Translations under genes and position numbers: made by a program
The notes under the pieces: model-generated
What the model was told of the DNA's origin: nothing
What the model saw: only the letters and a program-made list of their open reading frames with translations
Databases searched by the model: none
Source: Pristionchus mayeri
Taxonomy: Eukaryota; Nematoda; Chromadorea; Rhabditida; Neodiplogasteridae
Direction of reading: 5' to 3'
Length of the DNA: 64,000 nucleotides
Assembly (NCBI GenBank): GCA_036245805.1
Contig: BTRK01000004.1
Coordinates: 30,923,541 to 30,987,540 of the forward strand
In this document: in pieces, positions 18,027 through 64,000 of the stretch
Layout: every line of letters starts with the position of its first letter
Position numbering within the stretch: position 1 is the first letter of the stretch

Positions 18027-18504
18027 GCTGGAAATACTCAATCATAAATAATAAAAAAACAAAAAGAGTCGCCACATGCAACATAACAAGGAAACAAGTA
18101 ATAGGAAGTAGCAAATGGTTGACTATTCAGCATTCTTGAAGAACCTATTGAGAAGAGAAGGTCAGACCATCTCGAGGAGAACGATTGAGAAGAGTGAATT
18201 TAAATGTAAATTAGTAAATGATAATAAATAAGGATTCATATTGTGGTGATTAGATCGGAATCATTCAGAGAACGGAAGGGAGTGGAGGTCCTAATTGGAT
18301 GCCGCCCTGTACCCTGTCAAGCCATAAAAACTATTGGCATCACGCAATAAAATCCTCTGGCTGTGTAAATTGAGAGGAATGGCCAGCGGGAATGAGGCAA
18401 TTTCGCAAATTCAAAAGTTCAGGACAAGGAAGACTCCAATCATCACAATTTGGATAGTGTCAGAAACATTCTTACAAATATAGGTCTTCAGAGGATTCGA
18501 TGAT
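18027..18504. other. Spacer upstream of unit 3
   Basis: Shared array DNA with the landmarks AGAGAACGGAAGGGAGTGGAGG, AATAAAATCCTCTGGC and GGTCTTCAGAGGATTCGATG (each broken here to stay short). The same order is found upstream of units 4 and 5. No gene was recognised. Confidence 0.5.
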
Positions 18505-20930: not shown

Positions 20931-21620
20931 GAGGCCATTCAGGTGCTGGTCAGCGAATGAAATGAGAGGAGTTCGATGGGATCTGATGCTGTTGGGAGAC
21001 GAGGACCATCGGTGGATGCACTCGAGAAACAGATCATATCTTTCTCATATAGACCTGAAGAGGGACTAACGTTCGATAATGGGATGGAGAGACAATAAGA
21101 GATCTTCGAGCATGAATTGAGTGAATTGAATGATGGTGACAAGGGTAGAGCACTGCTGAGAAAGGTCGACGACAAGGTCGATAAGCAGTTCAGAAATCAC
21201 ATCCGCCCTAAGAGATCAGGAGAATTGTCAATCAAAGAGAACGTGGAGACCATGCAGGACCTATTCGGTGACAAGAAATCAGAGTTCGAGAAGAGATTAG
21301 ACCTATTCAATTTGAAATGTCGAAGTTGAGATGCGAAGATCTGAAAGAATTTGCGAGTATTGTGAATAGAGTGTACGAGGATTCGAGGATCAGTGAGATG
21401 AAACCCGAGCAGTTCAAAGAGATGATTCTGCTGATGGGAATCGATCTGCCTCGGTACACGTCTACAATGTTCCATGTGATAAACCAGATTGGAGAAGAGA
21501 CTCCCACAATGGATGATGTGCTGAAGATGGTTGACACTTTCAGAAAAGTGTATGGAGATGCTCATACAGCTGTGAATCAGAGTGGAATGAATTCTCCGAT
21601 GGTGAATGCCGTGCACAAAG
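20931..21620 (+). pseudogene. Gypsy-type Gag-like fragment, copy 2
   Basis: Same Gag-like domain as at 15960-16620 but with different damage. After SDAVGRRGPSVDALEKQII and RPEEGLTFDNGMERQ there is a TAA, then EIFEHELSELNDGDKGRALL, KVDDKVDKQFRNHIRPKRSG, and after a one-base loss near 21318 the frame continues with CEDLKEFASIVNRVYEDS and ILLMGIDLPRYTSTMFHV. The two copies share distal sequence almost exactly, which points to recent duplication of the cassette rather than independent insertion. No CCHC knuckle, protease or polymerase follows. Confidence 0.6.
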
Positions 21621-21890
21621 ACCACTCAATCGTCGAGTGTCTCCATCTTCCTCGTCACAATCTCTCATATTCCTCCTCATCGACCATTCCCCACTCTATT
21701 CTCTTATCCCCATTCGTCGCATTCAGCCATAAAATGTTCATTTTTATTCGTATAAATACAGAAGAAAATGATAATAAACAGACAGACACAGGAAAAGTTG
21801 AATATAGAAAGATAGAAATACCGATAATTAAATCAACACCTTTCCGCAGGGTGATAAGAGTACCTAGATTCACACAATGAGTCATCTAGA

Positions 21891-23019
21891 TTACACACGC
21901 GTGATATGGATATTCGATTTCGTTCCATTTGGATCATTGGTGAACCGAGTGGAGAATTGATTCGACAATTTGATTACCACTTGCTCCAACATCATTTGCA
22001 TATCAATCTCTTCACAGGCAGAAGTAATCGATGGCGCCGTCACCTTCACTTCTGATACGACGAGAACAGCTTGAGAGAAGAACTCCATGTATTCACTTTC
22101 TTAATGAGTGCATTTAATAAAAATGATTAATGGATATTGAAATATCGTTAATATCCAATATGAAAGTATTAATAAAGTTGAAAAACTCTCACCAATAGCC
22201 TCAATGGCGAAGATCCATGAATTGTTCGACTGCAACGCGACGCTTTTGATGTTTGGGAGCATGAGAAGATGAAGAACTTCTTGCCTGGAAATATAGATTT
22301 TATATTCTAGAAAAGAACATAAACATAATATTTAACAAAAAATAAAAACAAGATGCTCACAGGTGGTTCACATGGAAGCGTTCCATGTTGCTGAGGCACA
22401 GCTCGTCAATCTTTACTTCGGCCAACATATCTCTAATCCACTTGACAGCCATCCCAATCTCCTTGACAGGGAATAGCTCAATTTCAAGCCTCTTGATGCA
22501 CGAACATTTACTGAGGAGGCGAATGAGAGTCTTCGTAATATTCTTTATTAATTCATCAGAAAGGTATCCCGAGGCGAGCACGATCTGAATTATATTTTTA
22601 AAGATGAACTTATTAACGAAAATAAGATCCGAAGGAGAAAACACTGACATATCCATCCTCTTCAGTTGCTCCCCTCACTCCAAAGTATTTTTTGAGGTTC
22701 TCGGGAATGCGAACTTTCATCTGCATTTCTCCATTCTCGCCGAAGAACAAATAGAAGGAGGAGATGGCGGGAAGCAGTTTTCGATTTGCCAGGTGCTCCA
22801 TGGCCAGAGTGTTCCATCGGCGAGAGATCTTTAAAAGATAAATTCGAAGATGCATATCGTAGTAAGAATCTCAAAAGCGCATTACTATGAAAGAAATAGT
22901 TGACTCACCAGTCTCATCTCATCGATGGATTCCACTCCCAATCTCAAGATGTTCCGAATGACGTCAGAAGGCAAAGTGTTGATGGTAATCTCGTCTTGAG
23001 AAGACATTTGGAAATCCAT
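21891..23019 (-). CDS. F-box-like protein, unit 4 (intact, 271 aa)
   Basis: Five exons on the minus strand: 22909-23019, 22649-22828, 22361-22584, 22193-22284 and 21891-22099. Donor and acceptor phases agree at all four introns and give 271 codons. The N-terminal region forms an F-box-like motif split by intron 1: LPSDVIRNILRLGVES.DEMRL followed by ISRRWNTLAMEHL. F-box proteins recruit targets to SCF ubiquitin ligases through Skp1. Exon 2 continues with FYLFFGENGEMQMKVRIPEN; exon 3 is leucine-rich with a basic cluster (LIRLLSKCSCIKRLEIELFP); exon 4 reads MLPNIKSVALQSNNSWIFAI, resembling a leucine-rich-repeat step; exon 5 ends ...NIHITRV. The substrate-binding part is not recognised. It is one of five units in this window and, with unit 5, the only one without a lesion. 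Confidence 0.75.
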
Positions 23020-24060
23020 GCTGGAAAGAATCAAGAATCATAAATGGAAAAACATAAGGAACCGCCATATGCAACAGAACAAGGAAACAAGTAATAGGAA
23101 GTAGCACACGGGTGAATATTCAGCATTATTGAAGAACCAATTGGTAAGAGAAGGACCGACCTTCTCGAGGAGAATGATTGAGAGGAGTGAACGATAATAA
23201 ATAAGGATACAGATTGTGGTGATTAGATGTTAAGCATCCAGAGAACGGAAGGGCGTGAAGGTCCTAATTGGAAGCCGCCTTGTGTCCTGTCAAGCCATAA
23301 AACTTATTGGCAGCACGCAATAAAATCTCCTGGCTGTGTAAATTGAGAAGAAAGGCCTGCGGGAATGAGGCAATCTCGCAAATTCAAAAGTTCAGGACAA
23401 GCAAGACTCCAATAATCAAATCACAGCTTGAATAGTATCAAAACATTCCTGCAAATATAGGTCTTCAGAGGATCCGATGTACTACTTCCAACTCATGGTT
23501 ATTACAAAAGGGGTGATTTATTTCAGTCTTTCAGACATAAAATTGGAGAAGGAGTTTTCCAGGTCGTAGAGGATTCGAAAAACAACGACGATGAAACCTC
23601 ATTTAAAGGGAAGATCGAGAATGTCAGGGAAGAGTAATAATGTACAGGAGAGGTATCAGGTGCGGAATAGGGACGGGCGCTTCTTTTCAATTTCCTCGAT
23701 TCCTCATGCGCTGTTGGGCAGCTTCAAAGCGGCTGTCTGAGATAAATCATCGGTTTTTTGATAGATTTTTTCAAATTCAGAAAATGACCGAATTAGCTCA
23801 CCTCCGTCCAAATTGTGCTCGTTGTGCTGAGAAGGCTCAACTGGTTCTGAAAGATATTCATCAATATTTCCATGATATTTTCAAGTTTTATAACTATATA
23901 TCATTTTCGGGTTTATTCCCTACGCTTTGTAGAAATATAGAGACCAATCGCTCGCTGGGAAGTTCAAAGTCTTTCAGGCGATGGCAGGCAGGGCGTAGTG
24001 TGTTCCGTAGTTTTCCAGACGCGAAAGAAAGTGGTTTTTACAAGAGATCTATCATTTAGC
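23020..24060. other. Spacer upstream of unit 4
   Basis: Carries the full ordered set of spacer modules seen in the array without insertions: AGAGAACGGAAGGGCGTGAAG, CAATAAAATCTCCTGGC, GAGGATCCGATGTACTACTT, GAAAGATCGAGAATGTC-like text, the GTCCAAATTGTGCTCG module and TATATCATTTTCGGGTTTA. It is the best reference for what the array spacer looks like when uninterrupted. No gene was recognised. Confidence 0.5.
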
Positions 24061-24829: not shown

Positions 24830-26090
24830 TTCTAACAAGGCGCGAAAGTGATCGTGTGTCTCGACTGCGAGATAAAAGGAAGGAGTCTTCCCCCGAGTCT
24901 CGAGCAGCTCGTCAGATTTGACCAAGATGGGAAGATGGAGTGGATGGGAGGAAGCGTCTTTATCCTTCTTATCACTTAGTGTTGTAAGACTGCAAGCTTC
25001 TCGCTTGGTGCATCTGAGACTTATAATGTCACATTGCATCTCTCTCACTCTTCCCTTCTGTCGAACTGCTCGAAACTAAGGGATATCCGACCATTCACTC
25101 TTAAGTTTAGAATGACGATCGACTTCGAGTTAAAGAAGGAGGGTCAGCAAAATATAATATTTCCGCATTGGACGACGTTCGCAACTATCCCAAGATCGAC
25201 AAAACAATCCCAAAATACCGTTTCGGGTAGTCCCAGCGGTTCACATTTCGTCTTTAAAAATTCTTTGAGTTATAAAGACTTTCCCGAATGGCGATATACT
25301 CAAAAAGGTGGTTTCGACGTGACGACGTCTGGAGCCAACGAAGGCTCTGGGGGCAAAATGAATGCGCCCATCGTTTTCAGCACATTCGATTACCCCAAGA
25401 CCCAGAATTTAGAGAATCGACATTTTTTGGCTGTGCCGAGTCTTGCTCGATTCTTAGGCAAATGGGCTCATATACACAATCTTTAAATCGTATGTATGCC
25501 AAATTCTTTCGCAATAGTCGTACTTCTATTGTAAAATATATTAATTTTTTTTTTGAAATTTTTAGAGATTATCTCAACTAGGGTTAGTGAACTCGAGAAT
25601 GCGCGATTTTCGACTAATATAATCTGTTTATTCGACTCGGTTTAAAGTTCGCAACTCATAGAATTTTTAAAGACGAAATGTGAACCGCTGGGACTACCCG
25701 AAACGGTATTTTGGGATTGTTTTGTCGATATTGGGATAGTTGCGAACGTCGTCCAATGCGGAAATATTATATTTTGCTGACCCTCCTTCTTTAACTCGAA
25801 GTCGATCGTGATTCTAAACTTAAGAGTGAATGGTCGGATATCCCTTAGTTTCGAGCAGTTCGACAGAAGGGAAGAGTGAGAGAGATGCAATGTGACATTC
25901 AAAGTATCAGACACACCAAGCGAGAACCTCGCAGTCTTACAACACTAAGTGATGAGAAAGATAAAGACGCTTCCTCCCATCTATTTCCCCATCTTGGTCA
26001 ACTCTGAAGAGCTGCTCAAGGCTCGGGGGCAGACTCCATCCTTTACTCTCGCAGTAGAGACACACGATCACTTTGGCGCCTTGTCAGAGT
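24830..26090. repeat. Long inverted repeat (arms about 430 bp)
   Basis: The left arm (about 24830-25275) and right arm (about 25655-26090) are complementary, with a roughly 380-bp centre. Paired landmarks are AAGTGATCGTGTGTCTCGAC / AGACACACGATCACTTTG and GGGATATCCGACCATTCACT / AGTGAATGGTCGGATATCCC. On the minus strand the left arm is open through CTKREACSLTTLSDKKDKD, HLPILVKSDELLETRGKTP and FYLAVETHDHF. The right arm holds the same coding text on the plus strand with a frame shift (FPILVNSEELLKARGQTPS, LAVETHDHFGAL). The arms therefore copy part of a real exon. The right arm sits directly before the exon series at 26166-27060 on the same strand, so the inversion probably arose from that gene. 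Confidence 0.75.
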
Positions 26091-27399: not shown

Positions 27400-27640
27400 C
27401 TCCTTCCGCTCCTCCACTGACTCACAAAATCAAGCCGATACTCAGACTAAAGATCTCTTTGCTCAGCATTTCCCCAAAAGCTTTAACCATAACATCGATA
27501 AACAGTGCCCCGATTCAGCAGCACCGTATCACTGTCTACATCTACTGTCTACACCTGCATTATCTTAACTAATCGTTATTTGAATCCCCACCACGAACGA
27601 TAAAAATAATATTATTATTTATTATTAGGATCCCTCGAGT
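27400..27640 (+). mobile_element. LINE fragment: pre-RT linker joined to 3' tail
   Basis: The plus strand reads STDSQNQADTQTKDLFAQHF and NHNIDKQCPDSAAPYHCLHL, the kind of linker found between endonuclease and RT in CR1/jockey-like elements. It then jumps at about 27570 to a 3' end (ATTTGAATCCCCACCACGAA followed by CGATAAAAATAATATTATTA). The same 3' terminus occurs at 46155-46190 and 57275-57315. RT is entirely deleted. Confidence 0.5.
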
Positions 27641-27885
27641 GTTTCGATCTTCCTCCTCACTATCTCTCATATTCCTCCTCATCCGACCATTCCCCACTCG
27701 ATTCTCTTACCCCCACGCGTAGGATTCATTCAAAAATTGTTGATTTTTTATTCGTAAAGTACTGCAGAAAATGATAATAAACAGACACAGTTAAAAGTTT
27801 AATACAAAACAAAATATAGAGACCATTAATAAAATAAAATCAACGATAATGAGGGTACCTAGATTCACACAATGAGTAATCTAGA
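27641..27885. other. Cassette 3' flank of unit 5
   Basis: Diverged copy of the flank at 16640-16890 and 21660-21880 (CTCATATTCCTCCTCATCCG, then GTACCTAGATTCACACAATG). The Gag-like relic that precedes this flank in units 3 and 4 is absent and replaced by the LINE fragment. No gene. Confidence 0.5.
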
Positions 27886-29053
27886 TTACATACTATGAAT
27901 GTCGCCTCGACGCGTGATATGGATACTTGAGGTGCTTCCACTTGGATCATTGGTGAACCGAGTGGAGAATTGATTGGACAATTTGATTACCACTTGCTCC
28001 AACATGCTTTGCATATCAATCTCTTCGCAGGCCGAGATAATCGATGGCGCCGTCACTTTCACTTCGGATACGACGAGAACAGCTTGAGCGAAGAAATCCA
28101 TGTATTCGCTTTCTAAATGAGTGTTTTGATAAATGGAGAATGACGTATACTGGATATTTAAATATCATCAATGTGAAGTGAATGACTAATTCAAGTTGAG
28201 AAACTCTCACCAATAGCCTCAATGGCGAAGATCCATGCGTTATTCGACTGCAAAGTGAGGCTTTTGATGTTTGGGAGCATGAGAAGATGAAGAACTTCTT
28301 GCCTGGAAATGTAGGTTTTATATTTTGGTAATACACACATAATATTTAATAAAAAGTTTAAAAAAACAGTTGCTCACAGGTGGTTCACGTGGAACGATTC
28401 CATTCTGATGAGGCAAAGCTCGTCAATCGTAACTGTTGCCAATATATCTCTAATCCTCTTGGCAGCCATCCCAATCTCCCTGACAGGGAATAGCTCAATT
28501 TCCAGCCTCGCGATGCACGAACATCTACTGAGGAGGCGAATGAGAGTCTTCGTAATGTTCTTCAGTAATTCGTCAGAAAGATATCCCGAAGCGAGCACGA
28601 TCTGAAATGTAATTTTCATTTTGAATATGGACTTGAAGAAGTAGGAATACTGTCAGAAAACACTCACATATCCATCCTCTTCAGTTGTTCCTCTCACTCC
28701 AATGTACTTTTTGAGGTTCTCGGGAATGCGCACTTTCATCTGCATTTCTCCATTCTCTCCGAAGAACCAATAGAGGGTGGAGATGGCGGGAAGCAGTTTT
28801 CGATTAGCCAGGTGCTCCATGGCCAGAGCGTTCCATCGGCGAGAGATCTGTAAAAGATAAATGAGAAGATGCATATCGTAGTAAGAATCTCAAAAGCGCA
28901 TTACTGTGATAGAAATAGTTCGCTCACCAGTCTCATCTCATCGATGGGTTCTACTCCCACTCTCAGGATGTTCCGAATGACGTCTGAAGGTAAAGTCGTG
29001 ATGTTTTGATCAGTATCTTCTTGAGAAGACTGCCAGGACATTTGACACGCCAT
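27886..29053 (-). CDS. F-box-like protein, unit 5 (intact, 282 aa)
   Basis: Exons on the minus strand are 28928-29053, 28668-28847, 28378-28601, 28211-28302 and 27886-28112, with consistent phases and 282 codons. Exon 1 is longer than in other units and starts MACQMSWQSSQEDTDQNIT, then LPSDVIRNILRVGVEPIDEM. After intron 1 comes ISRRWNALAMEHLANRKLLP, completing an F-box-like motif. Exon 3 reads SDELLKNITKTLIRLLSRCS and exon 4 MLPNIKSLTLQSNNAWIF; exon 5 ends SSIHITRRGDIHSM. The intron 1 acceptor (TTTTACAG) is better than TTTAAAG in the other units. It is the most diverged unit in exon 1 and reads without lesions. The role is inferred from the F-box-like part only; the target is unknown. Confidence 0.75.
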
Positions 29054-30096
29054 GCTGGAAAGACTTAATGATAATATACGAAAAAAAGGCACCGCACGCA
29101 CGCAACAGAACAAGGAAACACGTAGGAGGAAGTAGCAAATGGTTGAATATTCAGCATTATTGAAGAATTGGGAAGAGAAGGACCGACCTTCTCGAGGAGA
29201 ATGATTGAGATAAGTGAATGATAATAAATAAGGATACAGATTGTGGTGATTAGATCGGAAGCATCCAGAGAACGGAAGGGCGTGAAGGTTCTAATTGGAA
29301 CCCGCCCTGTGCCCTGTCAAGCCATAAAACTTATTGGCAGCACGCAATAAAATCCTCTGGCTGTGTAAATGGAGAAGAAAGGCCAGCGGGAATGAGGCAA
29401 TCTCGCAAATTCAAAAGTTCAGGACAAGGAAGACTCCAATCATCACAACTTGAATAGTGTCAAAACATTCCTACAAATATAGGTCCTCAGAGGATCCGAT
29501 GTACAACTTCCAGCTCATGGATATTACGCGTGATTTATTTCAGTCTTTCAGACATAAAATTGGAGAAGGAGTTTTCCTAGCCGTAAACGATTCGAAAAAC
29601 AACGACGATGAAACCTCATTTAAAAGGAAGATCGAGAATGTCAGGGAAGAGAAATAATGTACAGGAGAGGTCAAGTGCGGAATAAGGACGGACGCTTTTT
29701 TCAATTTCCTTGATTCCTCATGCACTGTTGGGTAGTTTCAAGGCAGCTGTCTGAAAATCATCGATTGGAATTATTTCGAATTCATAAAACGACCAAATCA
29801 GCTCACCTCTGTCCAAATCGTGCTCGTCGTGCTGAGAAGGCTCATCTGGTTCTCAAATAGATTCATCAATGTTGTATGATATTTTTAAATTTTAGAACTA
29901 GACTCTCAGTTGCATTCTCCTAGTTTCTGTACAAATGAAGAAAAATATCGCTCGTTAGGAATCTTAAAGTCTTACAGGAGATGGCAGACAGGGCGTAGTG
30001 TGTTGCACGTTGATCGTGAATTCCAATGTGTCCTCTACAAATTGCTCTTGTAAACATTTTAAAAGCAAACAATATTTGCGAATATTTTTCCTAATC
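29054..30096. other. Spacer upstream of unit 5, right end of the cassette array
   Basis: Same order of modules as 23020-24060. The last recognisable array landmark is GATGGCAGACAGGGCGTAGT at about 29980 with TTGATCGTGAATTCCAATGT up to about 30035. Beyond this the sequence is single-copy within the window, so the array ends here. Confidence 0.5.
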
Positions 30097-44612: not shown

Positions 44613-46895
44613 CGTTGGATGATTCGAGCTACACTCGAAAGATGATGCCAAGGATGAATCCTGGGTCTCTTTTATACCAAACGACTAATTGATATCCTCG
44701 TTGAAAATATCGACAAGATCGTTTTTAGACAAAAGTAATGGGATTGGACTATTCATTCGCAAGCTGTACATAATTGACACTCTTCGGAGGGTAGGAAAAT
44801 GCAAACAACCAAACACTCACATTTCGTTGAAGAATTCCTCCCGAGAGCTTCTTTTAAATAACAATGATTTTGAAGGTGCTGTGAGGAGAAAAATGATTAT
44901 GTTAGCTACCTACATATGTCATATTAATCAATTACAATTTTCCTCAAATTTAGTTTTTGCTAATACCGCTTCAAGAATGTTTTCATAAATTGATACCTGT
45001 TATTTACGTATCCTTTAGCTAGTGGCTTCTCAATCGCACGTTAATTGTATGAAACTCAATTATTAAACTGCGGCTGCTTTTACAATTCCTTTTTTAACAT
45101 TTGTTTCTGCTAACGAACTCCATTGATGGCGCACTTGGTGCCCTGCGATGGCCGTATGTCCGATCGTGCGCTTGGGGTATCCTGAGCAAAATGGACGGGT
45201 TATGGTAGTTGTAACGATCTCTCACCTCCAATTTACTCCGCTACCACCACAGTATCCTAAACTTTTTACCTCCGCTCCGCTTTCTTCTTTCAGAACTCTG
45301 GCACACTCGAAGCTGAAGAGAGTTCTTGCAGCGAGTACTAAATTATCGGATCACTCCATTCCTCACTCTCTCCTTCTGACTTACGAGATAGCGTGTCTGG
45401 AGGGAGTCGGTAGTCTTCTCCTCTTTAATTTTTCACCTTGCAGGACCTCTGCATCGGCCTAGACGCTTTATCTCTCTCATTAAGACACCCTTCCCTCATT
45501 CGTACTCCTCAGTGCCTACCACGATTCCTACAATCGGGCATTAATTCGCATGGGAAGAGGCAGACGGGGAGATAGAGAGACAATGGGGGAGATGACACCT
45601 GCCCTGCATTTCTCAGTCCATAGCAGACACACCCCCCTTGTCTTTCCATTCCATGCCCTCTGGTACCCTCTGGAGTTCTATAATGTGCATAGGCTCAGTC
45701 CATCTATTCATCTTCGCATGTATATTCATAGTTGAATCCGTCACTGTGTATTAGCGAAATTTGTCTACTTTATCCACAAATGTCGCCTCGCTTTCGATAC
45801 ACCTTTCAGGCGCCTAAATTGCCTCAACCTGCATGTATGTCCATGCTTCAACTAAGTTTTCAAGGAAAAATGTACTCTTTCCTTATGAAATTAAAGCTGA
45901 AATGTGATCCATATTCAGTAATAATGTGAGATTAACAAATGTTTTTATTCAGGCACGATTCTTGTTCCCGCTAACCTTGAGGCAGAGGGCGCTTGCAGTG
46001 TATATTTTTTATTATATAATTTCCTTTAAAAGTTAGAGTAGCCATACGTCGCACGAAAAATCTCATGATGGCGTGATCTCACTTGCCCTTCCTTCGACAC
46101 CGTAATATCGTGTTGTGATGACTACTCTTTTCTGTATAATATTCACTATTTGTCATTCGAATCCCCGCCACGAGCGATAAATATATTATTATTATTATCA
46201 CTTGCCGCGAGGGACCGTTGAGAGAGAATTCTAAATGAGGAGATGCAATTGTAACTCTCTAATTTTTATAGTAGCATAATGTTCAGGGTCTTTCATTGTA
46301 TTACTGTATCATCCAGAGTTCAACATGGTGGGTTAACCTCTCGACTTTCTCTAGACAACCTCTTTCCTCTCCTCTTTCTCGCATTTCTTAGTCGGCGAGA
46401 GAGTGTGTGGAAGGGATAAAACACCCTGAGGTACTTAGTATGATCCATTCATGTTCATCCCATCCCTTGCACGATAAACTAATGGCCACTTCTTGCAGTC
46501 AATGAAGTTCATGTCCTTCTTCGTGAGCACTTTCCTATCAATCTTCCCACAGTCCATCGATCTCGGCATCCACATCCTATTAGTATCTTTATTGTAAATT
46601 TTGTATGAATATTCTCGCTTGGTTTTAACCTTGTCCTATGTAATGAAATTCGCCTGTAGGCAGAGATCAGAGTTTCTTGTTGCTACATGGGAACAATAAT
46701 AGAAGAAAGTCCAGGGAAAAGGAAAACGTATGGTATCGATGCTTCTTATTCAAATTCATCTTGAATTATGGCGTCCTCACATTTCTTCTTCATTTCTTCT
46801 CCCACAGCATCGCAGAATCCGCATAGACCAACTCATCATACGAAATGCAGTGTCATGGGACAATACTAAGAGACATTGATGACTCATGCCTATTT
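44613..46895. repeat. Spacer 1 of the HSP70 array (paralogous to spacer 2)
   Basis: The stretch is similar, in order, to parts of 51530-62015: GAATCCTGGGTNTCTTTTA, the CATGGGAAGAGGCAGAC segment, TTTCTATAATGTGCATAGG, GCCTCAACCTGCAT, AGGCACGATTCTTGTTCCCG and CGAGCGATAAATATATTATT (an old LINE 3' tail). The last 620 bp (46272-46891) are nearly identical to 61397-62016. It has none of the long palindromes of spacer 2. About 45165-45480 is present only here. No gene was recognised. Confidence 0.7.
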
Positions 46896-48623: not shown

Positions 48624-48871
48624 TATTTTCGGAATCAGTCGAAAGCCTTCGAAATCCAGCATTTTCCGGACGATTCTCGATGAAAGTTCGGCTGACTAAC
48701 AGGGCCCGTGACAATTCCATCCAGATGACGAGAGAAGAGGAGAGAGTGTGGGCGAGTGAGAGAGGAGAGACGACGAGAGTGACAAGAGATCAGAGGGAGA
48801 AGAGAGAGGGAAAACGACGAGAGGGAAGAGAGAGTGAAGTCGCGTGAGAGGGAGCGAGACAGGCAGAGCAT

Positions 48872-48918
48872 CGAAGATTCGCGAATTTTCACGCTCTTTC
48901 CTCGTATTCTGCATATAA
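48872..48918 (+). promoter_or_regulatory. Heat shock element and TATA box of HSP70 copy 2
   Basis: 48872-48891 reads cGAAgaTTCgcGAAttTTCa, four perfect units with one base different from copy 1 in a spacer position. TATAA lies at 48914-48918. The promoter is intact although the gene behind it is broken, so a heat-induced non-coding transcript is possible. Confidence 0.88.
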
Positions 48919-49015
48919 CTCCGAGGAGGGAAGAATGAGCACCCAAGTGGCAAAGTAAACACTCAAGTGTTCATCAATAGTCTCCACTACAGTCTTCACC
49001 ACCATCTACAGTATC

Positions 49016-51249
<2,234 letters not shown>

Positions 51250-52490: not shown

Positions 52491-54345
52491 GAGTGACTAT
52501 CTGAGAGAACTGACTAGAGGCCGTACAGCGAATAGTAAAGTGGCGATTTTATTTTCTCCCTAGGAGTAACTTTTCACGTAGAGTCCGAAAATCGACCTTA
52601 GAAAGCCGTATCTCTAATCCCTCGTTTTCTGTAGCACGCCTCAACGTCGAGGTCGGTTTTTCTAACTTTTGAACGGATCATCCAAACCCCATACACGTAT
52701 AGTAATTCTGAAAGAACTCGACGAGATAAGCATTTTTACTGTTGTAAGTTAAAGGTAAGCTCTTCTGTGAAAAAAAGTTGGAGTCGTTTGAATATTCAAA
52801 ATGTATGTCGTGAAAACATTTTCAATCCGTCGTACTTTTAACCAAGTTCATCAAATTTCCCGTAAAAAGTTACCCCAGGATGCAAATTTGGAGTCCATTT
52901 GGCGTGTCTCAATGGGATCATCTGATTCGAGAAAGAGGCAAGTGTATCGTTTTCTCATGAAGAATGCATATTTATTTGCCGTTCCAAAGCGATTAGGACA
53001 CACTCCGACGATTTTAAGATTAATATTGGATGGGCAAAAATAAAGGAGTTCAAAAATGCGGATTTCGGCTTATTTATAAAAAATCGATTTTCATCACCTC
53101 ATATGGTCCCATATTTCTATCAAAATAACTGTCCACTCCGAATTCCAATCCGAAAGTTCTAGTGCACAATTTCAAATATGCTTCCACTTCAAACAAAATG
53201 TTACAGCAGCTGGTCATAACCAATGCATAAGATAAGAATAAGTGGTCTTGAAAACGCTACAAATAACATGACACATTTATATTTTGTTGAGAAAAGAATT
53301 ACTTTGAAGTCAACTCTATGGTATTTGACCAGAATAATTCTTGCGTGAGTTATGTGCACCGATTTGTGCTGATTAAAGCTGTATCTACATTGTTTTGAAA
53401 ATTTCGATATTCTAGTGAGTCGAAAATTCGAATTTTGGTGACTCACGATTTTGGCAGATTCGCAAGTATGTCATGGTCTCTCTATGAATGATAAGTTTAA
53501 TAGTACAAAAATATCACAGATTTTCATTCAAAATTATACTTTTTTTCAATAAAATATAAATTTGTCATGTTATTTGTAGCGATTTCAAGGCCACTTATTC
53601 TTATCTTATGCATTGGTTATGACCACCTGCTGTAATATTTTGTATGACGTGGAAGCATATTTGAAATTGTGCACTAGAACTTTCGGATTGGAATTCGGAG
53701 TGGACAGTTATTTTGATATGAATATGGGACCACACGAGGTGATGAAAATCGATTTTTTACAAATAAGCCGAATTCCGGATTTTTGAACTCCTTTATTTTT
53801 GCCTACTAATCTTAAATTCGTCGGAGTGTGTCTGAATCGCTTTGGAACGGCAAATAAATGTGCATTCTTCATGAGAAAACGATACACTTGCCTCTTTCTC
53901 GAATCAGATGATCCCATTGAGACACGCCAAATGTACTCCAAATTTGCAATCTGGAAAACTTTTTACGGGGAATTTGATGAACGTGGTTAAAAGTACGACG
54001 GGTGGAAAATCTGTTCACGACATACATTTTGAATATTCAAACGACTCCAACTTTTTTCACAGAAGAGCTTACCTTTAACTTACAACAGTAAAATGCTTAT
54101 CTCGTCGAGTTCTTTCAGAATTACTATACGTGTATGGGGTTTGGATGATCCGTTCAAAAGTTAGAAAAACCGGCCTCGACGTTGAGGCGTGCTACAGAAA
54201 ACGAGGGATTAGAGATACGGCTTTCTAAGGTCGATTTTCGGACTCTACGTGAAAAGTTACCCCTAGGAATATCTTAAAATCAACACTTTATTTTTCGCTG
54301 TAAGGCATATAGGTTGAATTGGTCAATTCTCTCAGATAGTCACTC
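52491..54345. mobile_element. Foldback element A, 1855 bp, arms about 790 bp
   Basis: Both ends carry GAGTGACTATCTGAGAGAA as inverted repeats and are flanked by a 4-bp duplication ATAG (52487-52490 and 54346-54349); spacer 1 has a single ATAG at the matching place (45689-45692). The arms pair almost throughout, for example CTCGACGAGATAAGCATTTT / AAAATGCTTATCTCGTCGAG and TAACCAATGCATAAGATAAG / its complement at about 53600. The unpaired centre is about 53285-53560. Open frames in the arms (52801-53043, 53708-53990) occur on both strands because of the symmetry and look non-coding. No transposase was recognised. Confidence 0.88.
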
Positions 54346-54604: not shown

Positions 54605-55904
54605 GAGAGACGTTTTGAGTCAGTGAACATATGCTTGGCAAAGTGCGAAAAATCGAAATCGCCCTAAATGTGCCCACGTGTAGTACTCGACGAGCATAGC
54701 TCGGGGCCACATACGGAGCGTTCTAGATCACTCTCTGCGAAATGGGGCACCCTTATTTCAGAAATTTCAAATTTCGATTTTTTTCATTTCGAAACCGATT
54801 TGAATGACTGATGTCTCAAAAAATCACTAATATTCCATAGATTGTATGTGACAAATTCTAGAATGATTGGGCATCAACTTGTGAAGAAACAGCGAAAATA
54901 ATTTTTCGACAATTTTTAATTAATTCAGAAGGGTGGGTAGATACGTTTTTGATTTCACTATAAGATAGAGCGGTATGCGTGCTGTTCATATAAAAGTTCC
55001 TTGGGTCAAACATTTTTCTAAAAATTTCAAACATTTTTCTAAAAATTCCAAATCGATCATAAAATGATTCTACGGTAATGAAAGATACGTTATGATACTT
55101 TAAAATATTTGTTTGCTCAATTTTGGATTTTTAGAAAAATGTTTGACCCAAGGAACTGGAAATGACCCATGGAACTGGGTTACGGTAGTTACCTGGGTAC
55201 TGTATAATCGATTGGGCATGGTACCAGGACTTTTTAAAAATAAAGTTAGTTCGCGATAATCGTGGGTTACGGTAGTGGTATACGGTATCTGGTGGTACTG
55301 TATGATCGATTGGGGACGGTAACTAGTCTTGACCTACCATTGACCTACCGACCGATTTTTGGACCATTCATGGTTCAAAACTAGGACAATAAATATAATT
55401 CCGGCTGCCTAGAGTACGGTAGTATCGGCATGATTGAGAATTGACTTTTTGCATATTTTTGATGATTTCTCACAAACTGTATTTTTAATTTCTTTTTATT
55501 TTTTTTATATGAACAGCACGCATACCGCTCTATCTTATAATGAAATCAAAAACGTATCTACCCACCCTTCTGAATTAATTAAAAATTTTCGAAAAATTAT
55601 TTTCGATGTTTCTTCACGAGTTGATGCCCAATCATTCTAGAATTTGTCACATACAATCTATGTAATATTAGTGATTTTTTGAGATATCAGTCATTCAAAT
55701 CGGTTTCGAAATGAAAAAAATCGAAATTTGAAATTTCTGAAATAAGTGTGCCCCATTTCGCAGAGAGTGATCTAGAACGCTCCGTATGTGGCACCCGAGC
55801 TATGCTCGTCGAGTACTACACGTGGGCACATTTAGGGCGATTTCAATTTTTCGCACTTTGCCAAGTGTATCTACAAATATGTTCACTCACTCAAAAAGTC
55901 TCTC
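54605..55904. mobile_element. Foldback element B, 1300 bp, with a nested smaller palindrome
   Basis: The ends are GAGAGAC(G/T)TTTTGAGT inverted repeats, flanked by ATAA (54601-54604 and 55905-55908); spacer 1 has ACAA at this place without the element. The arms are about 390 bp (54605-54995 and 55510-55904), for example CACGTGTAGTACTCGACGAG / CTCGTCGAGTACTACACGTG. In the centre, 54996-55155 is a second palindrome with ends GTTCCTTGGGTCAAACATTT, and 55158-55500 contains GGTTACGGTAGT/GATTGG motifs similar to those at 59080-59395. No coding capacity was recognised. Confidence 0.85.
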
Positions 55905-56112: not shown

Positions 56113-57259
56113 CAGGCATCTCACGAGAGAATCGGGACAACGTGTTGACATGGAAAATACAAATTTTTCAATTTTACATTTTTTTAGTAAGGGGTTGGGG
56201 CACAGATGCTTTCTCTTGTCTGTTTTGACCTCATTGCATCTTGCAGCTGCAGCAGGCTGCTGCAAAGTTGCGACGTATGCATCGTTTAGTGAAGTTTTCA
56301 CCTATAAAGGAGGTGATGTTTGACCGCCAAAGTGTTTCTATGATCAAATGAACGATTTTGGCATATGTTGTTCATTTCTCACTTTTGCGACCTTTGCGGC
56401 AGACGCATGGTGGACATGTTTTTAATTTCCCACTCAAACACTGATTTTTTGCGGATCTCGAAACTTTCCCAGTTTGTAGAGCTTTGAATTCCGCACATAC
56501 CACATTTTTTGGTGATTTTATCTCTGTGGTCTTGGCACATTCCCAAACCGGCGAAGACTTCACAACGGGCTGCAAGGTTCACCTGCAGTGGATCTGACTT
56601 TGCTAAGTCGCTAGTTCGAACCCCAGCCATAGCAGACAAGTTTTTTGCCATGTGCTAACATCGAGAACGCAAGTCTCAAAGTATTACGGATCAAATGGAT
56701 GAGAAAAAAGGATGGCAAAAACTTGCCTGCTACGGCTGGGGTTCGAACTAGCGACTTAGCGAACTCAGTTCCCCTGCAGGTGAACCTTGCAGCCCGTTGT
56801 TAAGTCTTCGCCGGTTTGGGAATGTGCCAAGACCACAGAGATAAAATCACCAAAAAATGTGGTATGTGCGGAATTCAAAGCTCTACAAACTGGGAAAGTT
56901 TCGAGATCCGCAAAAAATCAGTGTTTGAGTGGGAAATTAAAAACATGTCCACCATGCGTCTGCTGCAAAGGTCGCAAAAGTGAGAAATGAACAACATATG
57001 CCAAAATCGTTCATTTGATCATAGACACACTTTGGCGGACACATATCACCACTTTTATAGGTGAAAACTTCACTAACGATGCCATACGTCTCAACTTTGC
57101 AGCAGCCTACTGCAGCTGCAGCGCACGTAAAAAATCCGAAACTTCAGATTTAGGCTAGCCCAGTGAAGTACTGAATGGAAACATAATAAATAAGATTTCC
57201 GAAAATTTGAATGTCAACTGAAAATGCTGATTTGTCCCGATTCTCTCGTGAGAGGCCTG
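56113..57259. mobile_element. Foldback element C, complete, 1147 bp, with tRNA-like T-arms
   Basis: The ends are CAGGC(A/C)TCTCACGAGAGAATC, with ATAT on both sides (56109-56112 and 57260-57263). Spacer 1 has a single ATAT (46139-46142). The two halves pair almost completely around about 56670. Each half has TAGTTCGAACCCCAGC preceded by a short stem (56600-56635 and its inverse at 56735-56760), a match to a tRNA T-arm/B box. Partial copies of the same family lie at 4715-5190 and 6885-7496. The short open frames in each arm are mirror images and carry no recognisable domain. Confidence 0.88.
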
Positions 57260-57394
57260 ATATCCACTATTTGTCATTCGAATTCCCGCCACGAGCGATA
57301 AATATATTATTATTACTATCACTTGCCGCGAGGGACCATTGAGAAAGAATTCTAAATGAGGAGATGCAATTGTTAACCCTCTTATTTTTTATAA

Positions 57395-57434
57395 CCAGCC
57401 GATCGCGCGCGCCACGGCGCGCGCAATCGACTGG
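57395..57434. repeat. GC-rich hairpin
   Basis: CCAGCCGAT-C-GCGCGCGCC pairs with GGCGCGCGC-A-ATCGACTGG across a very short loop. In this A/T-rich setting it is exceptional. It forms the left end of the 4-kb block and may be its rolling-circle terminator. Confidence 0.85.
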
Positions 57435-57494
57435 CGTGTTCCGGGATTTGTTCTAAGGCCTCGTCCTATTTCTTTCGGATGCAAAATCTAATAC

Positions 57495-58168
57495 TGCCTT
57501 ACTTTACATATCTCCCTCCCTCTCCCTACCTCTCCTTCGCGCTTTCTCCCTATTTCTCTCATTCTCTCCCTCTCCCTCTCCCTCTCCTCTACCTTTACCT
57601 CTCCCTCTCCCTCTCTCTCCCTTTCTCTCCCTCTCTCCCTCTCTCTCCCTCTCTTTCCCTCTCTCTTCCTCTCTCTCCCTCTCTCTTCCTCTCTCTCCCT
57701 CTCTCTCCCTCTCTCTCCCTCTCTCCCTCTCTCCCCCTCTCTCCCTCTCTCCCCCTCTCTCCCTCTCTCCCCCTCTCTCCCTCTCTTTCCTTCTCTCCAT
57801 CTCTCTCCCTCTCTTTCCCTCTCGTTTCCCTCTCTCCCTCTCTCTCCTTATCTTTCCTCTCTCTCTCTCCTTCTCTTCCCTCTCTGTCCCTCTCCCTCTC
57901 TCTCCTTCCCTCTCTCTCTCTCCCTCTCCCCATCTCTCTCCTCTCCCTCTCTCTTCATTTCTCTCCCTCTTTTTCCCTCTATCTCTCCCTCTCTCTTCCT
58001 CTCTCACTTTCTCTCCCTCTCTCCCTCTCTCTCCCCCCCTCTCCCTCTCTCCCTCCCTTTCCTTCTCTCCATCTCTCTCCCCCTCTTCCCTCTCTCCCTC
58101 TCTCCCCGTATCTTTCCCTCTCTCTCTCCTTCTCTTTCCCTCTCTGTCCCTCTCCCCCTCTCTCCTCC

Positions 58169-58208
<40 letters not shown>

Positions 58209-58815
58209 TCCCCATATCTCTCCCTCTCCCTCTCTCTTCCTCTCTCTCCCTCCCTCTCCCTCTCTTTCCCTCTCTCCCTCTCTCCCTCTCTCTCCCTCTC
58301 TCCCTCTCTCTCCCTCTCTCCCCCTCTCTCCCTCTCTCTCCCTCTCTTTCCTTCTCTCCATCTCTCTCCCTCTCTTTCCCTCTCTCCCTCTCTCTCCTTA
58401 TCTTTCCCTCTCTCTCTCCTTCTCTTTCCCTCTCTGTCCCTCTCCCTCTCTCTCCCTCTCCCTCTCTCTTCATCTCTCTCCCTCTTTTTCCCTCTATCTC
58501 TCCCTCTCTTCCTCTCTCTTCCTCTCTCCCTTTCTCTCCCTCTCTCCCTCTCTCTCCTTCTCTTCCCCTCTCTCTCCTTATCTTTCCCTCTCTCTCCTTC
58601 TCTTTCCCTCTCTCTCTCATTATCTTTCCCTCGTTCTCCCTTCTTCTCTTTCCCTCCCTCTCTCTCCCTCTCTATCCCTTTCTATCCCTCTCTGCCTCTC
58701 TCTCCCTCTCTATCCTTCTCTTTCCATCTCTCTCCCTCTTCTCCTCACTCTCTCCCACTCTCCATCTCTCCCTGTCTCCTTCCCCGCCCTCTTTCCTACT
58801 CTCCCTCTCGTTTTC
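57495..58815. repeat. Polypyrimidine microsatellite, about 1.3 kb
   Basis: Imperfect (CTCTCTCCCT)n with interspersed CTTTCC and CTTCCT variants, almost free of purines on the plus strand. Longer internal blocks repeat, such as the segment around CTCTCCTTATCTTTCCCTCT. It produces long spurious open frames of Ser/Pro/Leu on one strand and Arg/Glu/Gly on the other. Confidence 0.95.
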
Positions 58816-58825
58816 GAATTTTCTT

Positions 58826-59075
58826 TAACATTCTAGAAGCTTTGGAACATTTGCGAACTTTCTGGAACATTCTAGAAGCTTTGGAACATTTTCGAACTTT
58901 CTGGAACATTCTAGAAGCTTTAGAACATTTTCGAACTTTCTGGAACATTCTAGAAGCTTTGGAACATTTTCAAACTTTCGGGAACATTCTAGAAGCTTTG
59001 GAACATTTTCGAACTTTCTGGAACATTCTAGAAGCTTTGGAACATTTTCGAACTTTCTGGAACATTCTAGATGCT
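58826..59075. repeat. 39-bp minisatellite made of heat shock elements
   Basis: About 6.4 copies of a 39-bp unit (GAACATTCTAGAAGCTTTGG followed by AACATTTTCGAACTTTCTG). Across unit junctions it reads TTCtgGAAcaTTCtaGAA, a perfect four-site HSE with correct 5-bp spacing. Five junctions are perfect or nearly so (one has TTCgg); the last has GAt for GAA and the first is truncated. The adjoining gcTTTggAAC weakly extends each site. Units differ by only a few bases. Confidence 0.93.
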
Positions 59076-59077
59076 TT

Positions 59078-59395
59078 GACCCGTGGCTAATTATCGATTG
59101 GTATACGGTAGTTGACCCAATGCTAATTATTGATTGGTATACGGTAATTCAAAGATCAAAGGTCAATATCATAAATCTGACCCAAGGGAATAAGAGGTGA
59201 CCCATGGCTAATTATCGATTGGTATACGGTAGTTGACCCAATGCTAATTATTGATTGGTATACGGTAATTCAAAGATCAAAGGTCAAAATCATAAATCTG
59301 ACCCACGGAATAAGAGGTGACCCATGGCTAATTATCAATTGGTATACGGTAGTTGACCCAATGCTAATTATTGATTGGCATACGGTAATGGATCG
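59078..59395. repeat. 120-bp tandem repeat, about 2.6 copies
   Basis: The unit begins GACCCATGGCTAATTATCGA and includes TTGGTATACGGTAGTTGACC; starts are at about 59078, 59199 and 59319. Each unit also contains an internal near-duplication (GCTAATTATTGATTGGTATA). Related GGTATACGGTA motifs occur in the centre of foldback element B. Confidence 0.88.
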
Positions 59396-59473
59396 ATGCC
59401 TTTGTAACTTCATCTGTCCCTCCCCTCCCTATTTCGCAATCCGGACAGACGGACAGACGGACACAGCGCTTTA

Positions 59474-61388
59474 TATATCACAGGTATCACGAGTCGATGG
59501 AGGAAGCCATGAACGATTTTTTTCAAAGATTTTCAAAATTAGTCATATATTGATGGTATAAGGTACCAAGGACAAGAAATCGAAGGAACCAGGTTATTTG
59601 TCCCAGAGCCGGCTTTTAGGCATTTTCCGGTTTTACTACCGGCTATACTGTATATCAGTCCGCAGAAGAGCTACAGATATGCCGGAGGTCTTAAAAAATC
59701 GGGAAAAATATGACAAATAACTTTACTGTTGACAACTTTCTGATTGGACCAAAACTCATAATTCTGAGATCGAAAAACCACATTTTGAATTTAAAAATAA
59801 ATATTTTCCCCATCACGCAGTAGAAACGAAGAGGTTTTTATTGCGGAATATGAAAGACCAATCTCTCAAGTGTCTTAGAAAAAAATATGAAGGAAAAATT
59901 TTATACAGTATTTTTTGATAATCGCGGTTAAAGGTGAGGTCCCGAGGTGACGAATTGGAAATAATCGAAATCTTCTACATTGTACGTTGAACTTCGGCCA
60001 GCATTATGCTGTTTTATTTTGTACAACACCGTATACATCGAAAAATGTTCAAAGGAGATCGGATTTAGTGGTTCGCAAAAAATCGATTTTCAACACTCGG
60101 ATTGTGGCGTGTTTAGGGGCATGTAAAGTATCATTATCAAAGTGAACTTCCATTGGTCATATGCTGATGTTCAAGTACAGTAGGCAGTCTATCAACATTC
60201 ACAGAACTCGGCCCTTGCAATTACTCAAAACATCTAGATATTCGCAATCGAATTTACGAAAATGAAAGAGTCGAAAAACAAAATAAATCGGTTCTACCCA
60301 GATTTTGCGAAAATCGATCAGATTTGAACATCTAAATTCAGTGTATGATCATAAAAGTATGAATTCCCTGTGAATACAATTATACTGCTTGTTTCTGGAA
60401 AAAAATTATTTCCACCTCTTCGAAACAAAAAAAAATATCAAATGGTGCGCGTTGTACCAATCAGTGTGCTTGATGACTTATATGGTATGAAAATGAATTT
60501 TGATGTTCAAATCCGATCGATTTTCGCAAAATCTGGGTAGAACCGATTTGTTTTGTTTTTCGAATCTTTCATTTTCGTAAATTCGATTGCGAATATCTAG
60601 ATGTTTTGAGTAATTGCAAGGGCCGAGTTCTGTGAATGTTGATAGACTGCCTACTGTACTTGAACATCAGCATATGACCAATGGACGTTCACTTTGATAA
60701 TGATACTTTACATGCCCCTAAACGTGCCACAATCCGAGTGTTGAAAATCAATTTTTTGCGAACCACTAAATCCGATCTCCTTTGAACATTTTTCGATGTA
60801 TACTGTGTTGTACAAAATAAAACAGCATAATGCTGGCCGAAGTTCAACGTACAATGTAGAAGATTTCGATTATTTCCAATTCGTCTCCTCGGGACCTCAC
60901 CTTTAACCGTGATTATCAAAAAATACGCGATTATCAACAAAAAAAATATAAAATTTTTCCGTCATATTTTTTTTCTAAGACACTTGACAGATTGATGTTT
61001 CATATTCCGCAATAAAAACCTCTGCGTTTCTACTGCGTGATAGGGAAAATATTTAGTTTTAAATTCAAAATGTGGTTTTTCGATCCCAGAATTATGAGTT
61101 TTGGTCCAATCCGAAAGTTGTCAAAGTGAAGTTATTTGTCATATTTTTCCCGATTTTTTAAGACCTATGGCATATATGTAGCTCTTCTGCGGACTGATAT
61201 ACAGTATAGCCGGTAGTAAAACCGGAAAATGTCTAAAAGCCGGATCTGGGACAAATAACATGGTTCCCTCGATTTCTTGTCCTTAGTACCTTCTACCATC
61301 AATATATGGCTAATTTTAAAAATCTTTGAAAAAAATCGTTCACGAAGGGGCTAGTTTTGCTTCACTGACTCGTGATACATGTGATATA
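59474..61388. repeat. Long palindrome D, 1915 bp, arms about 900 bp
   Basis: The ends are TATATCACA(G/T)GTATCACGAGTC in inverse. The arms pair for most of their length, for example TCAAGTACAGTAGGCAGTCT / AGACTGCCTACTGTACTTGA, with the centre at about 60330-60480. The right end lies 8 bp from the outer boundary of the 4-kb block. Unlike foldback A-C there is no 4-bp duplication around it, so it is probably part of the Helitron-like block and not an independent insertion. No coding sequence was recognised. Confidence 0.85.
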
Positions 61389-61396
61389 GGTATTGA

Positions 61397-62030
61397 TAGC
61401 ATAATTTTCAGGGTCTTTCACTGTATCACTGTATCATCCAGAGTTCAACATGGTGGGTTAACCTCTCGACTTTCTCTAGACAACCTCTTTCCTCTCCTCT
61501 TTCTCGCATTGCTTAGTCGGCGAGAGAGTGTGTGGAAGGGATAAAACACCCTGAGGTACTTAGTATGATCCATTCATGTTCATCCCATCCCTTGCACGAT
61601 AAACTAATGGCCACTTCTTGCAGTCAATGAAGTTCATGTCCTTCTTCGTGAGCACTTTCCTATCAATCTTCCCACAGTCCATCGATCTCGGCATCCACAT
61701 CCTATTAGTATCTTTATTGTAAATTTTGTATGAATATTCTCGCTTGGTTTTAACCTTGTCCTATGTAATGAAATTCGCCTGTAGGCAGAGATCAGAGTTT
61801 CTTGTTGCTACATGGGAACAATAATAGAAGAAAGTCCAGGGAAAAGGAAAACGTATGGTATCGATGCTTCTTATTCAAATTCATCTTGAATTATGGCGTC
61901 CTCACATTTCTTCTTCATTTCTTCTCCCACAGCATCGCAGAATCCGCATAGACCAACTCATCATACGAAATGCAGTGTCATGGGACAATACTAAGAGACA
62001 TTGATGACTCATGCCTATTTTCGGAATCAG
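61397..62030. repeat. Upstream segment of HSP70 copy 3, duplicate of 46272-46895
   Basis: Nearly identical to the segment upstream of LINE copy B, including TTCAACATGGTGGGTTAACC, CGGCGAGAGAGTGTGTGGAA and CAGTGTCATGGGACAATACT. It continues without interruption into the HSP70 promoter, so it shows the state before LINE B inserted. Plus-strand GT/AG-like motifs exist but no coding frame was recognised. Confidence 0.85.
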
Positions 62031-62263: not shown

Positions 62264-62310
62264 CGAAGATTCGCGAATGTTCACGCTCTTTCCTCGTATT
62301 CTGCATATAA
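62264..62310 (+). promoter_or_regulatory. Heat shock element and TATA box of HSP70 copy 3
   Basis: 62264-62283 reads cGAAgaTTCgcGAAtgTTCa, identical to copy 1, and TATAA is at 62306-62310. The leader to the ATG is close to that of copy 2, not copy 1. No transposon lies between this promoter and the 61397-62030 flank. Confidence 0.9.
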
Positions 62311-62407: not shown

Positions 62408-64000
62408 ATGTCATCGTGCAAAGCGATCGGAATCGATCTGGGGACTACGTACTCCTGTGTGGGAGTGTACCAGAATGGACGAGTGGAGATCATCGCTAAC
62501 GACCAAGGAAACAAGACGACGCCCTCGTATGTGGCATTCACTGATGAGGAACGACTCGTGGGAGATTCGGCCAAGGATCAAGCAGCCAGGAATCCCCAGA
62601 ACACAATCTTCGATGGAAAGAGACTCATCGGAAGGAAGTTCGGAGATGAAACGGTGAGTCATTCAGAAGATTATTCGTAGATAGAGCAGTCAGAAGATCA
62701 TTCTAGAGTATTCTTGTTCTTCTATTCATCATTCCCCTCCCTGACCCTATCCCTTGCAGGTTCAATCAGACATGAAGCACTGGCCCTTCATAGTCATCAA
62801 TCGAGGGGGAAAACCAGTGATCGAGGCAGAATTCAAAGCAGAGAAGAAGCAGTTCATGCCTGAGGAAATCTCCGCCTCCGTTCTCACGAAGATGAAGGAA
62901 ACCGCGGAGGCTTACCTCGGACATCCTGTCAAGGTACGATGGTTTGAGATTCTTTTGTTAGTGAGCACTGGGCATCGAAATACGAGCTAAGTCTCTTCTA
63001 AAATTGATTCATTTCGATTTCGGAAATAGTCGAAATAATTTCGAAAGCAAACACGTGTAGGAAGATTCTAGAGGATTCATTTTCGAAAGTGTCACTTCTC
63101 ATTTCCGAATTATCGCATGAATCATAGATTAGTTTGGAAAAAAATTAAGCAGCTTTATCATGCAGTGTGATTCTCAATTCAACTCGATCAATAATCCCCA
63201 TTCCAGGAGGCGGTCATTACCGTACCCGCGTACTTCAACGACTCTCAACGACAAGCGACGAAGGATGCAGCTACCATCTCGGGTCTCAAATGTCTCCGCA
63301 TCATCAACGAACCCACGGCTGCTGCCCTTGCCTACGGACTGGACAAGAATCTGTCTGGAGAGAGGAACGTGCTGATCTTTGATCTCGGAGGAGGAACCTT
63401 CGACGTCTCCATCCTCACAATTTCGGAGGGATCTCTCTTCGAGGTCCGTTCTACGGCAGGAGATACCCATCTGGGAGGAGAGGACTTCGACCAGAGGATT
63501 CTAGAGCATTGCGAGGCTGACTTCAAGCGGAAGACTGGGAAGGAGATCAAGAAGAATGCACGAGCCCTTCGAAGACTGCGAACAGCGTGCGAGAGGGCGA
63601 AGAGGACGTTGTCTTCGAGTGCAGAAGCCGTGATCGAAGTGGACTCATTGCACGAAGGGATGGACTACCATGCGAAGATCACTCGAGCCAGATTCGAGGA
63701 GTTGTGTGCAGATCTGTTCAGGAAGACTCTCGAACCAGTGGAGAAGGCATTGCGAGATGCGAAGATGGACAAGAGATCCATCCAGGATGTCGTCCTTGTC
63801 GGAGGATCCACTCGCATCCCTCGAGTACAGAAACTACTCACGGAGTTCTTCGGAGGCAAGGAATTGTGTGCGGGGATCAATCCTGACGAGGCCGTCGCTT
63901 ACGGAGCAGCTGTGCAAGCTGCAGTACTGTCAGGAGTGGAGGATGCAGCTGTTCGTGATGTCCTTCTAGTGGATGTAGCCCCCCTGTCATTGGGCATCGA
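62408..64000 (+). CDS. Inducible cytosolic HSP70, copy 3 (partial, runs off the window)
   Basis: Exons are 62408-62653, 62760-62933 and 63207 to the window edge. The visible part (about 405 codons) is open and covers the ATPase domain: [63 protein letters not shown] and [15 protein letters not shown]. It ends in the [11 protein letters not shown] stretch. Compared with copy 1 it has Gln for Lys in VYQNGRV, Gly for Ala in FDGKRLIG and Ile for Thr in WPFIVINRG; the latter two are at usually conserved places. Intron 1 is identical to that of copy 1, whereas exons 1 and 3 agree with copy 2. Intron 2 is unlike both. Confidence 0.95.

Follow-up and report, generated by a model that had tools for sequence, protein, structure and literature searches.

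A Helitron with an array of heat shock elements inside an HSP70 gene cluster of Pristionchus mayeri

The HSP70 gene cluster of the nematode Pristionchus mayeri contains a transposon that itself carries heat shock elements (HSEs). The element is a 4002-bp block at 57395-61396 of a 64,000-nucleotide stretch, here called the window (C4:30923541-30987540; C1, C4 and C5 denote contigs of the surveyed genome). An earlier note on this DNA described the block as a Helitron-like element, possibly an independent parallel to the HSE-bearing Helitrons of Caenorhabditis and possibly a distal heat enhancer. The block is best read as a non-autonomous Helitron related to a RepHel-coding family; the array probably serves to render RepHel heat-inducible in that family, and non-autonomous copies would spread the HSEs as passengers; this reading is given a probability of about 0.82. 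The genome surveyed comprises 290.8 Mb in 73 contigs, six of which (39.7-57.3 Mb) make up about 287 Mb.

Ends and boundaries of the Helitron

The window copy consists of the following parts.

57395..61396, minus strand: Helitron copy, 4002 bp with the nested insertion, delimited by a paralogous empty site and by ends common to the genomic matches
57395..57445, minus strand: 3′ end with hairpin and CTGG, 51 bp, 94% shared with the coding copies L065 and L066
57511..58809, no strand: CT/GA-rich simple repeat between the 3′ end and the HSE array
58811..59078, no strand: 39-bp minisatellite forming the HSE array, 6.9 copies, 94% matches
59077..59389, no strand: 121-bp minisatellite, 2.6 copies, which also adjoins the 5′ end of coding copies
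59390..59478, minus strand: 5′ subterminal Helitron region up to the nested insertion, its last four bases being one ATAT target copy
59479..61383, no strand: nested palindromic terminal inverted repeat (TIR) transposon, 1905 bp, with ATAT at 59475-59478 and 61384-61387
61388..61396, minus strand: outermost 9 bp of the Helitron 5′ end (TCAATACCT on the minus strand), severed by the nested insertion

The boundaries are set by spacer 1 of the cluster, which holds the paralogous empty site. The left flank (57260-57393) aligns to 46139-46270 with 93.3% identity and the right flank (61397-62020) to 46272-46895 with 99.4%. The junction reads ...TTTTTATAA, element, TAGCATAA, and the site in spacer 1 reads ...TTTTTATAG TAGCATAA, so that there is no target duplication. 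The base preceding the insertion is A at the window copy and G in spacer 1, for which reason the insertion, called precise in the earlier note, is exact only to within one base. The absence of a duplication stands, but 1905 of the 4002 bp belong to a separate nested transposon; once this insert and one copy of its ATAT duplication are subtracted, the Helitron measures 2093 bp. A second HSP70 pair, in inverted orientation, offers no third empty site: the alignment of its spacer begins only 607 bp into the right flank.

The minus-strand termini are TC at the 5′ end and CTGG at the 3′ end, and the target is A^T, in keeping with the ends and the insertion directly before T given in the earlier note. 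A 44-bp pattern of the 3′ end (at most three mismatches) has 183 genomic matches (100 + 83; control 0), and a 23-bp pattern of the 5′ end (at most two mismatches) has 980 (526 + 454; control 1); 100 matches of each list were inspected. In 20 of 20 three-prime loci, drawn from 40 scored matches and including the window copy, the end is CCAG on the plus strand with A before it, that is, CTGG^T. The 5′ ends were compared at 12 loci, again with the window copy, and seven others (L051, L052, L055, L056, L057, L058, L059) end in GGTATTGA followed by T. The two ends also belong together: 27 of the 100 listed three-prime ends have a listed five-prime end within 12 kb in the correct order and orientation, and within that distance none of the 100 has one on the wrong side. 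The 3′ hairpin of the earlier note is equally borne out, with 18 pairs and -22.7 kcal/mol (z -4.2), a value that 0 of 200 shuffles attains.

About half of the block is a long palindrome with inverted ends, and on this ground the whole could be taken for a single TIR or palindromic element. The palindrome, however, is delimited on its own. It begins with CACAGGTATCACGAGTC and ends with GACTCGTGATACATGTG, its arms of about 850 bp are 93-94% identical, its 17-bp ends differ at one base, and the 4-bp ATAT duplication stands on both sides. Three of 20 right-end loci of this family have both ends, with the duplications TTAT (L028), ATAA (L030) and ATAA (L033); a 120-bp query from its last stretch gave 417 first-look candidates, 40 of which were scored. 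The palindrome is thus a multi-copy transposon with 4-bp A/T target duplications. The outer ends of the block are those of a RepHel-bearing family that makes no target duplication, and copies with the same outer ends but no palindrome were seen. A single 4002-bp palindromic element, rejected on the palindrome's own ATAT duplication, is thus extremely improbable. The palindrome is younger than the Helitron because it is inserted inside it, and it entered 9 bp from the Helitron 5′ end.

By sequence criteria, then, 57395-61396 is confirmed as a Helitron through its termini, hairpin, A^T insertion, copy number and coding partners. Canonical Helitrons share the TC 5′ end, the CTRR 3′ end, the 3′ hairpin, the A^T insertion without duplication and the combination of an HUH-type Rep with a PIF1-type helicase.

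The heat shock element array and its coding partners

The minisatellite of perfect HSEs reported by the earlier note is real. Its 39-bp unit holds CGAACTTTCTGGAACATTCTAGAAG, which corresponds to five perfect alternating nGAAn/nTTCn units, and the array contains six runs of 4-5 such units (starts at 58855, 58894, 58933, 58977, 59011 and 59050). The window as a whole has nine runs of at least three units, all of them 4 or 5 long: six in the element, and the other three in the HSP70 promoters, one per promoter. Runs of at least four perfect units thus occur nine times, as against none in 40 first-order Markov resamplings (which are not exact shuffles), and GAANNTTCNNGAA has 22 matches in the window where 2.04 are expected, a number reached in 0 of 100 shuffles. 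A chance origin of the HSEs was ruled out by these shuffles and resamplings.

The perfect five-unit pattern has 13,068 matches in the genome (6212 + 6856; reversed-pattern control 0 + 0), which are matches and not separate sites because runs of at least six units match more than once; one 25-bp version of the HSE has 3933 + 4202 exact copies. The 100 five-unit matches inspected all lie on C1, up to 13.57 Mb, and form 18 clusters, of which C1:5940684 was dropped as a different palindrome. Within these first 13.6 Mb of C1, assigned by hand, 15 of the 17 remaining clusters lie in Helitron-derived sequence: at eight of them a Helitron end or a Rep gene is listed, and seven more adjoin the 121-bp repeat or the 5′ region. 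The association also holds from the side of the Helitrons. HSE runs are found inside 12 of 20 copies vs 1 of 20 flanks of equal length (1500 bp), and in 16 of 20 copies once more of the interior is counted.

The earlier note had proposed a search for an autonomous RepHel relative with the same ends, and such relatives exist. The PF14214 profile gives 81 genomic matches, some of them fragments. The best 35 were compared with the lists of ends, the omitted 46 consisting of fragments plus a second group whose frames are long. A listed 3′ end lies 2.8-3.4 kb downstream at 14 of the 35 loci, a listed 5′ end is present at 12, and both ends are present, in the correct order, at seven; these counts are lower bounds, as the lists of ends are partial. 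Two copies are complete: L066 (7129 bp) and L068 (6379 bp) both begin at A^TCAATACC, end at CTGG^T and show A^T insertion at the two flanks. In each, the HVH and KYVYKG motifs share one frame, and the helicase P-loop lies in another. Pfam assigns Helitron_like_N (PF14214), REP_ORF2-G2P (PF23343), PIF1 and Pif1_2B to the frames of L066, and Helitron_like_N and REP_ORF2-G2P to the Rep frame of L068, the sole L068 frame scanned. Upstream of the Rep frames lie HSEs, seven runs of 3-5 units in L066 and one six-unit and one three-unit run in L068. The window copy without its nested insert shares about the first 680 bp with L066 (91-94% in the main pieces), which comprise the 5′ terminus, the 121-bp repeats and the HSE minisatellite, and the last 51 bp (94%); it lacks the transposase gene.

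The window copy may accordingly be described as a non-autonomous Helitron related to a RepHel family that has complete copies in the same genome. As two complete copies have their HSEs placed between the 5′ terminus and the Rep frames, the array probably acts in RepHel transcription, which HSF-1 would drive and heat would induce, favouring transposition after stress. Together with the published heat-induced RepHel of C. elegans and C. briggsae, the position of the HSEs makes heat-inducible transposition the best explanation. Both heat induction and HSF-1 binding are proposed for the array from its motifs and by analogy. Non-autonomous copies would spread the array as passengers. The window copy entered an A^T target between two HSP70 genes, apparently later than the duplication of the spacers, as the Helitron is absent from spacer 1.

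Several observations weigh against this account or qualify it. The hairpin runs flush into the terminal CTGG and reaches the last base, whereas the canonical Helitron hairpin usually ends some bases before the terminus. The 5′ ends are less uniform than the 3′ ends because four of the 12 loci (L050, L053, L054, L060) deviate; in L054 a GGTATTGAT follows after about 0.64 kb, L053 continues into sequence of the palindrome, and the deviations look like decay or later insertion. The earlier note had named ends that vary between copies and target duplications as signs against a single rolling-circle element: variation was seen at these 5′ loci, the 3′ ends being constant in 20, and the sole duplication detected is that of the nested element, none being seen for the Helitron. 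No HSE run appears in four of 20 non-autonomous copies, although L005, L009 and L013 were covered over 1626 bp only; L006 has both Helitron ends and still no run. Of the four coding loci read, two show little: L065 resembles L066 in its coding region and at the 3′ end, yet it lacks the TCAATACC end and carries a single three-unit HSE run, and L067 shares the 121-bp repeats and the 3′ end without any HSE run. The RepHel frames are interrupted by apparent introns, and the coding content is given here as frames. The 1.3-kb simple repeat of the window copy is not accounted for by deletion of a coding copy alone.

The array could instead be a self-expanding satellite that hitch-hikes in Helitrons and has no role in their transcription. 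Its length ranges from a few runs to 9.87 kb with 253.6 copies, and two of the 17 clusters (L075; L073/L082) have no recognised Helitron sequence alongside, as such a satellite might. Yet two complete coding copies hold HSEs at the same place upstream of Rep, and this position is kept even where the 39-bp array is reduced, as in L068 with its six-unit run. A transcriptional role is preferred on these grounds, and a mere hitch-hiker is considered unlikely.

The largest array read is C5:31235662-31245533 (L069, L070), with 265 runs of at least three units. After it come 121-bp Helitron repeats, and the Helitron 5′ end seen there is degenerate; exact patterns and BLAST found no Helitron 3′ end in the 7.66 kb to its left. 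Human satellite III, with its nuclear stress bodies, is a known HSF1-bound case. Helitron-borne HSE satellites might likewise make up a large share of the HSF-1 binding capacity of the P. mayeri genome, as a sink or as seeds of nuclear stress bodies, in addition to a heat-inducible transposase, but this wider proposal is quite doubtful. If it were true, amplified satellites of the C5 type would be a transposon-made counterpart of human satellite III.

Relation to Caenorhabditis and to other satellites

The RepHel proteins were placed in a tree of 29 rows, 26 hand-picked from 120 listed of 504 and three from P. mayeri. The three P. mayeri copies fall into a group of nine with a support of 100/100, the other members being C. 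japonica (2), C. nigoni, Trichuris muris, Ancylostoma caninum and one further protein. A second Caenorhabditis clade stands apart, with C. angaria, C. remanei and two C. nigoni proteins. Among the 120 rows listed no RepHel is named as C. elegans or C. briggsae. An earlier RepHel listing lacked Caenorhabditis, but evolutionary distance was rejected as the reason, as Caenorhabditis proteins appear in the later one; the first search took only proteins of 260-826 aa and is uninformative on distance. Trichuris is a distant nematode, and the presence of its RepHel (P0242) in a group with P. mayeri and Caenorhabditis proteins could reflect horizontal transfer or contamination.

Heat-induced RepHel with upstream HSEs is described for C. 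elegans and C. briggsae (Garrigues 2019, PMC6927752), the elements concerned being Helitron1_CE, HelitronY1_CE, HelitronY4_CE and Helitron7_CB. As far as that account goes, the P. mayeri family resembles them in its clustered tandem HSEs upstream of RepHel, its many non-autonomous copies and its very dense clusters. It differs in its host, which by HSP70 is closest to Pristionchus, in a 39-bp satellite unit that comprises five perfect HSE units, in an array of nearly 10 kb, in a copy located inside an HSP70 cluster, and in that its HSF-1 sites are predicted from sequence. The HSE-bearing Helitron trick of Caenorhabditis thus seems to exist in another worm family. Of the parallel drawn in the earlier note, the Helitron, its real HSE array and its occurrence outside Caenorhabditis hold; its origin may be independent, common or due to horizontal transfer.

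Helitron satellites of AGAANNTTCT decamers are likewise described in Caenorhabditis (Cele_Fam_7_40 and relatives; Subirana 2015, PMC4595182), and the P. mayeri array, also Helitron-borne, contains the same decamers. Common descent argued from the 39/40-bp period was rejected: the decamer is part of the HSE itself, so that the period is no proof of it, and Cele_Fam_7_40 is likened here by its description. Human satellite DNA bound by HSF1 (review Vourc'h 2022, as described in PMC11431837) is also tandem DNA with HSF sites, predicted here and reported as bound there, but in that description it is not transposon-borne.

The titles and abstract openings of the literature found contain no report of HSE-bearing Helitrons in animals outside Caenorhabditis. 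In the main text of Garrigues 2019 (PMC6927752) the words "Pristionchus" and "pacificus" each occur 0 times. In the text available of each, a Nematostella preprint (PMC13104882) brings in Helitrons only by citing Garrigues, and a paper on Pristionchus repeats (PMC9297572) mentions Helitrons four times and heat shock 0 times. Heat shock or HSE terms have 0 matches in PMC9918286. Deletion of Helitrons upstream of a C. elegans F-box gene is described as affecting heat resistance and fertility (PMC12062965). A probable diplogastrid that combines complete coding copies with a large HSE satellite and with a Helitron inside an HSP70 cluster opens two questions to testing: whether heat-inducible Helitrons arose long ago or several times over, and whether thousands of extra predicted HSF-1 sites alter the heat shock response.

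The HSP70 genes and the remainder of the window

The gene next to the Helitron is HSP70 copy 3.

62265..62283, plus strand: four-unit HSE of the HSP70 copy 3 promoter, with similar runs at 40313 and 48873
62408..64000, plus strand: HSP70 copy 3, ATG at 62408, extending beyond the window, with no stop reported in the 137-638 match

The nearest named HSP70 among 120 proteins listed of 7998 scored is from Pristionchus pacificus (87% identity), other named nematodes lying at about 67-72%; judged by this one gene, the host is probably a diplogastrid nematode. The last run of the array starts at 59050, the promoter HSE at 62265 and the ATG at 62408, which agrees with the distance of about 3 kb given in the earlier note. 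A four-unit HSE is present in all five HSP70 promoters examined, three in the window and two in the inverted pair.

The window copy might have been recruited to enhance the heat response of HSP70 copy 3 from a distance. This suggestion draws on its six runs of 4-5 perfect HSE units, which lie about 3.2 kb upstream of the promoter HSE, on the apparently intact gene, and on the link in C. elegans between Helitron HSEs and up-regulated nearby genes, as described in PMC6927752. The copy 3 promoter, however, already holds the four-unit HSE of all five promoters examined, and another transposon sits between the array and this promoter. From the 18 clusters in 13.57 Mb, an HSE cluster within 5 kb of two HSP70 loci is expected about 0.07 times by chance, 0.068 in one calculation and 0.070 in another with a slightly different target; the figure leaves room for an enhancer but requires no function, and the placement of the Helitron next to HSP70 is compatible with chance. 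Co-option is therefore very unlikely, and we think the effect of the array on copy 3 weak or absent. A preference of the transposon for open heat-shock promoters is a possible cause of the placement, since such targeting occurs in Drosophila according to a citation in the Nematostella preprint (PMC13104882).

HSP70 copies 1 and 3 look intact. Copy 2 (48801-51246) looks disrupted because its reading frame changes around residues 139-182 and a stop is reported within the match. The inverted HSP70 pair lies at C4:29403113-29410394 (29.40 Mb; L072) and has the four-unit HSE in both promoters; two Helitron 5′ ends (C4:29436780, 29439811) are found about 26-30 kb from it.

Other repeats occur throughout the window. 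Long inverted repeats with arms about 91-98% identical lie at 52514-54312, 54634-55865, 56242-57120 and 24831-26088, and three of the four share one HSP70 spacer with the Helitron copy. Segmental copies at 15967-18502, 20959-23479 and 27635-30004 are 83-88% identical, with parts also near 2997-5894 and 11473-12583. A GA-rich minisatellite of TCCTAGAGATAGGA units extends over 14130-14986.

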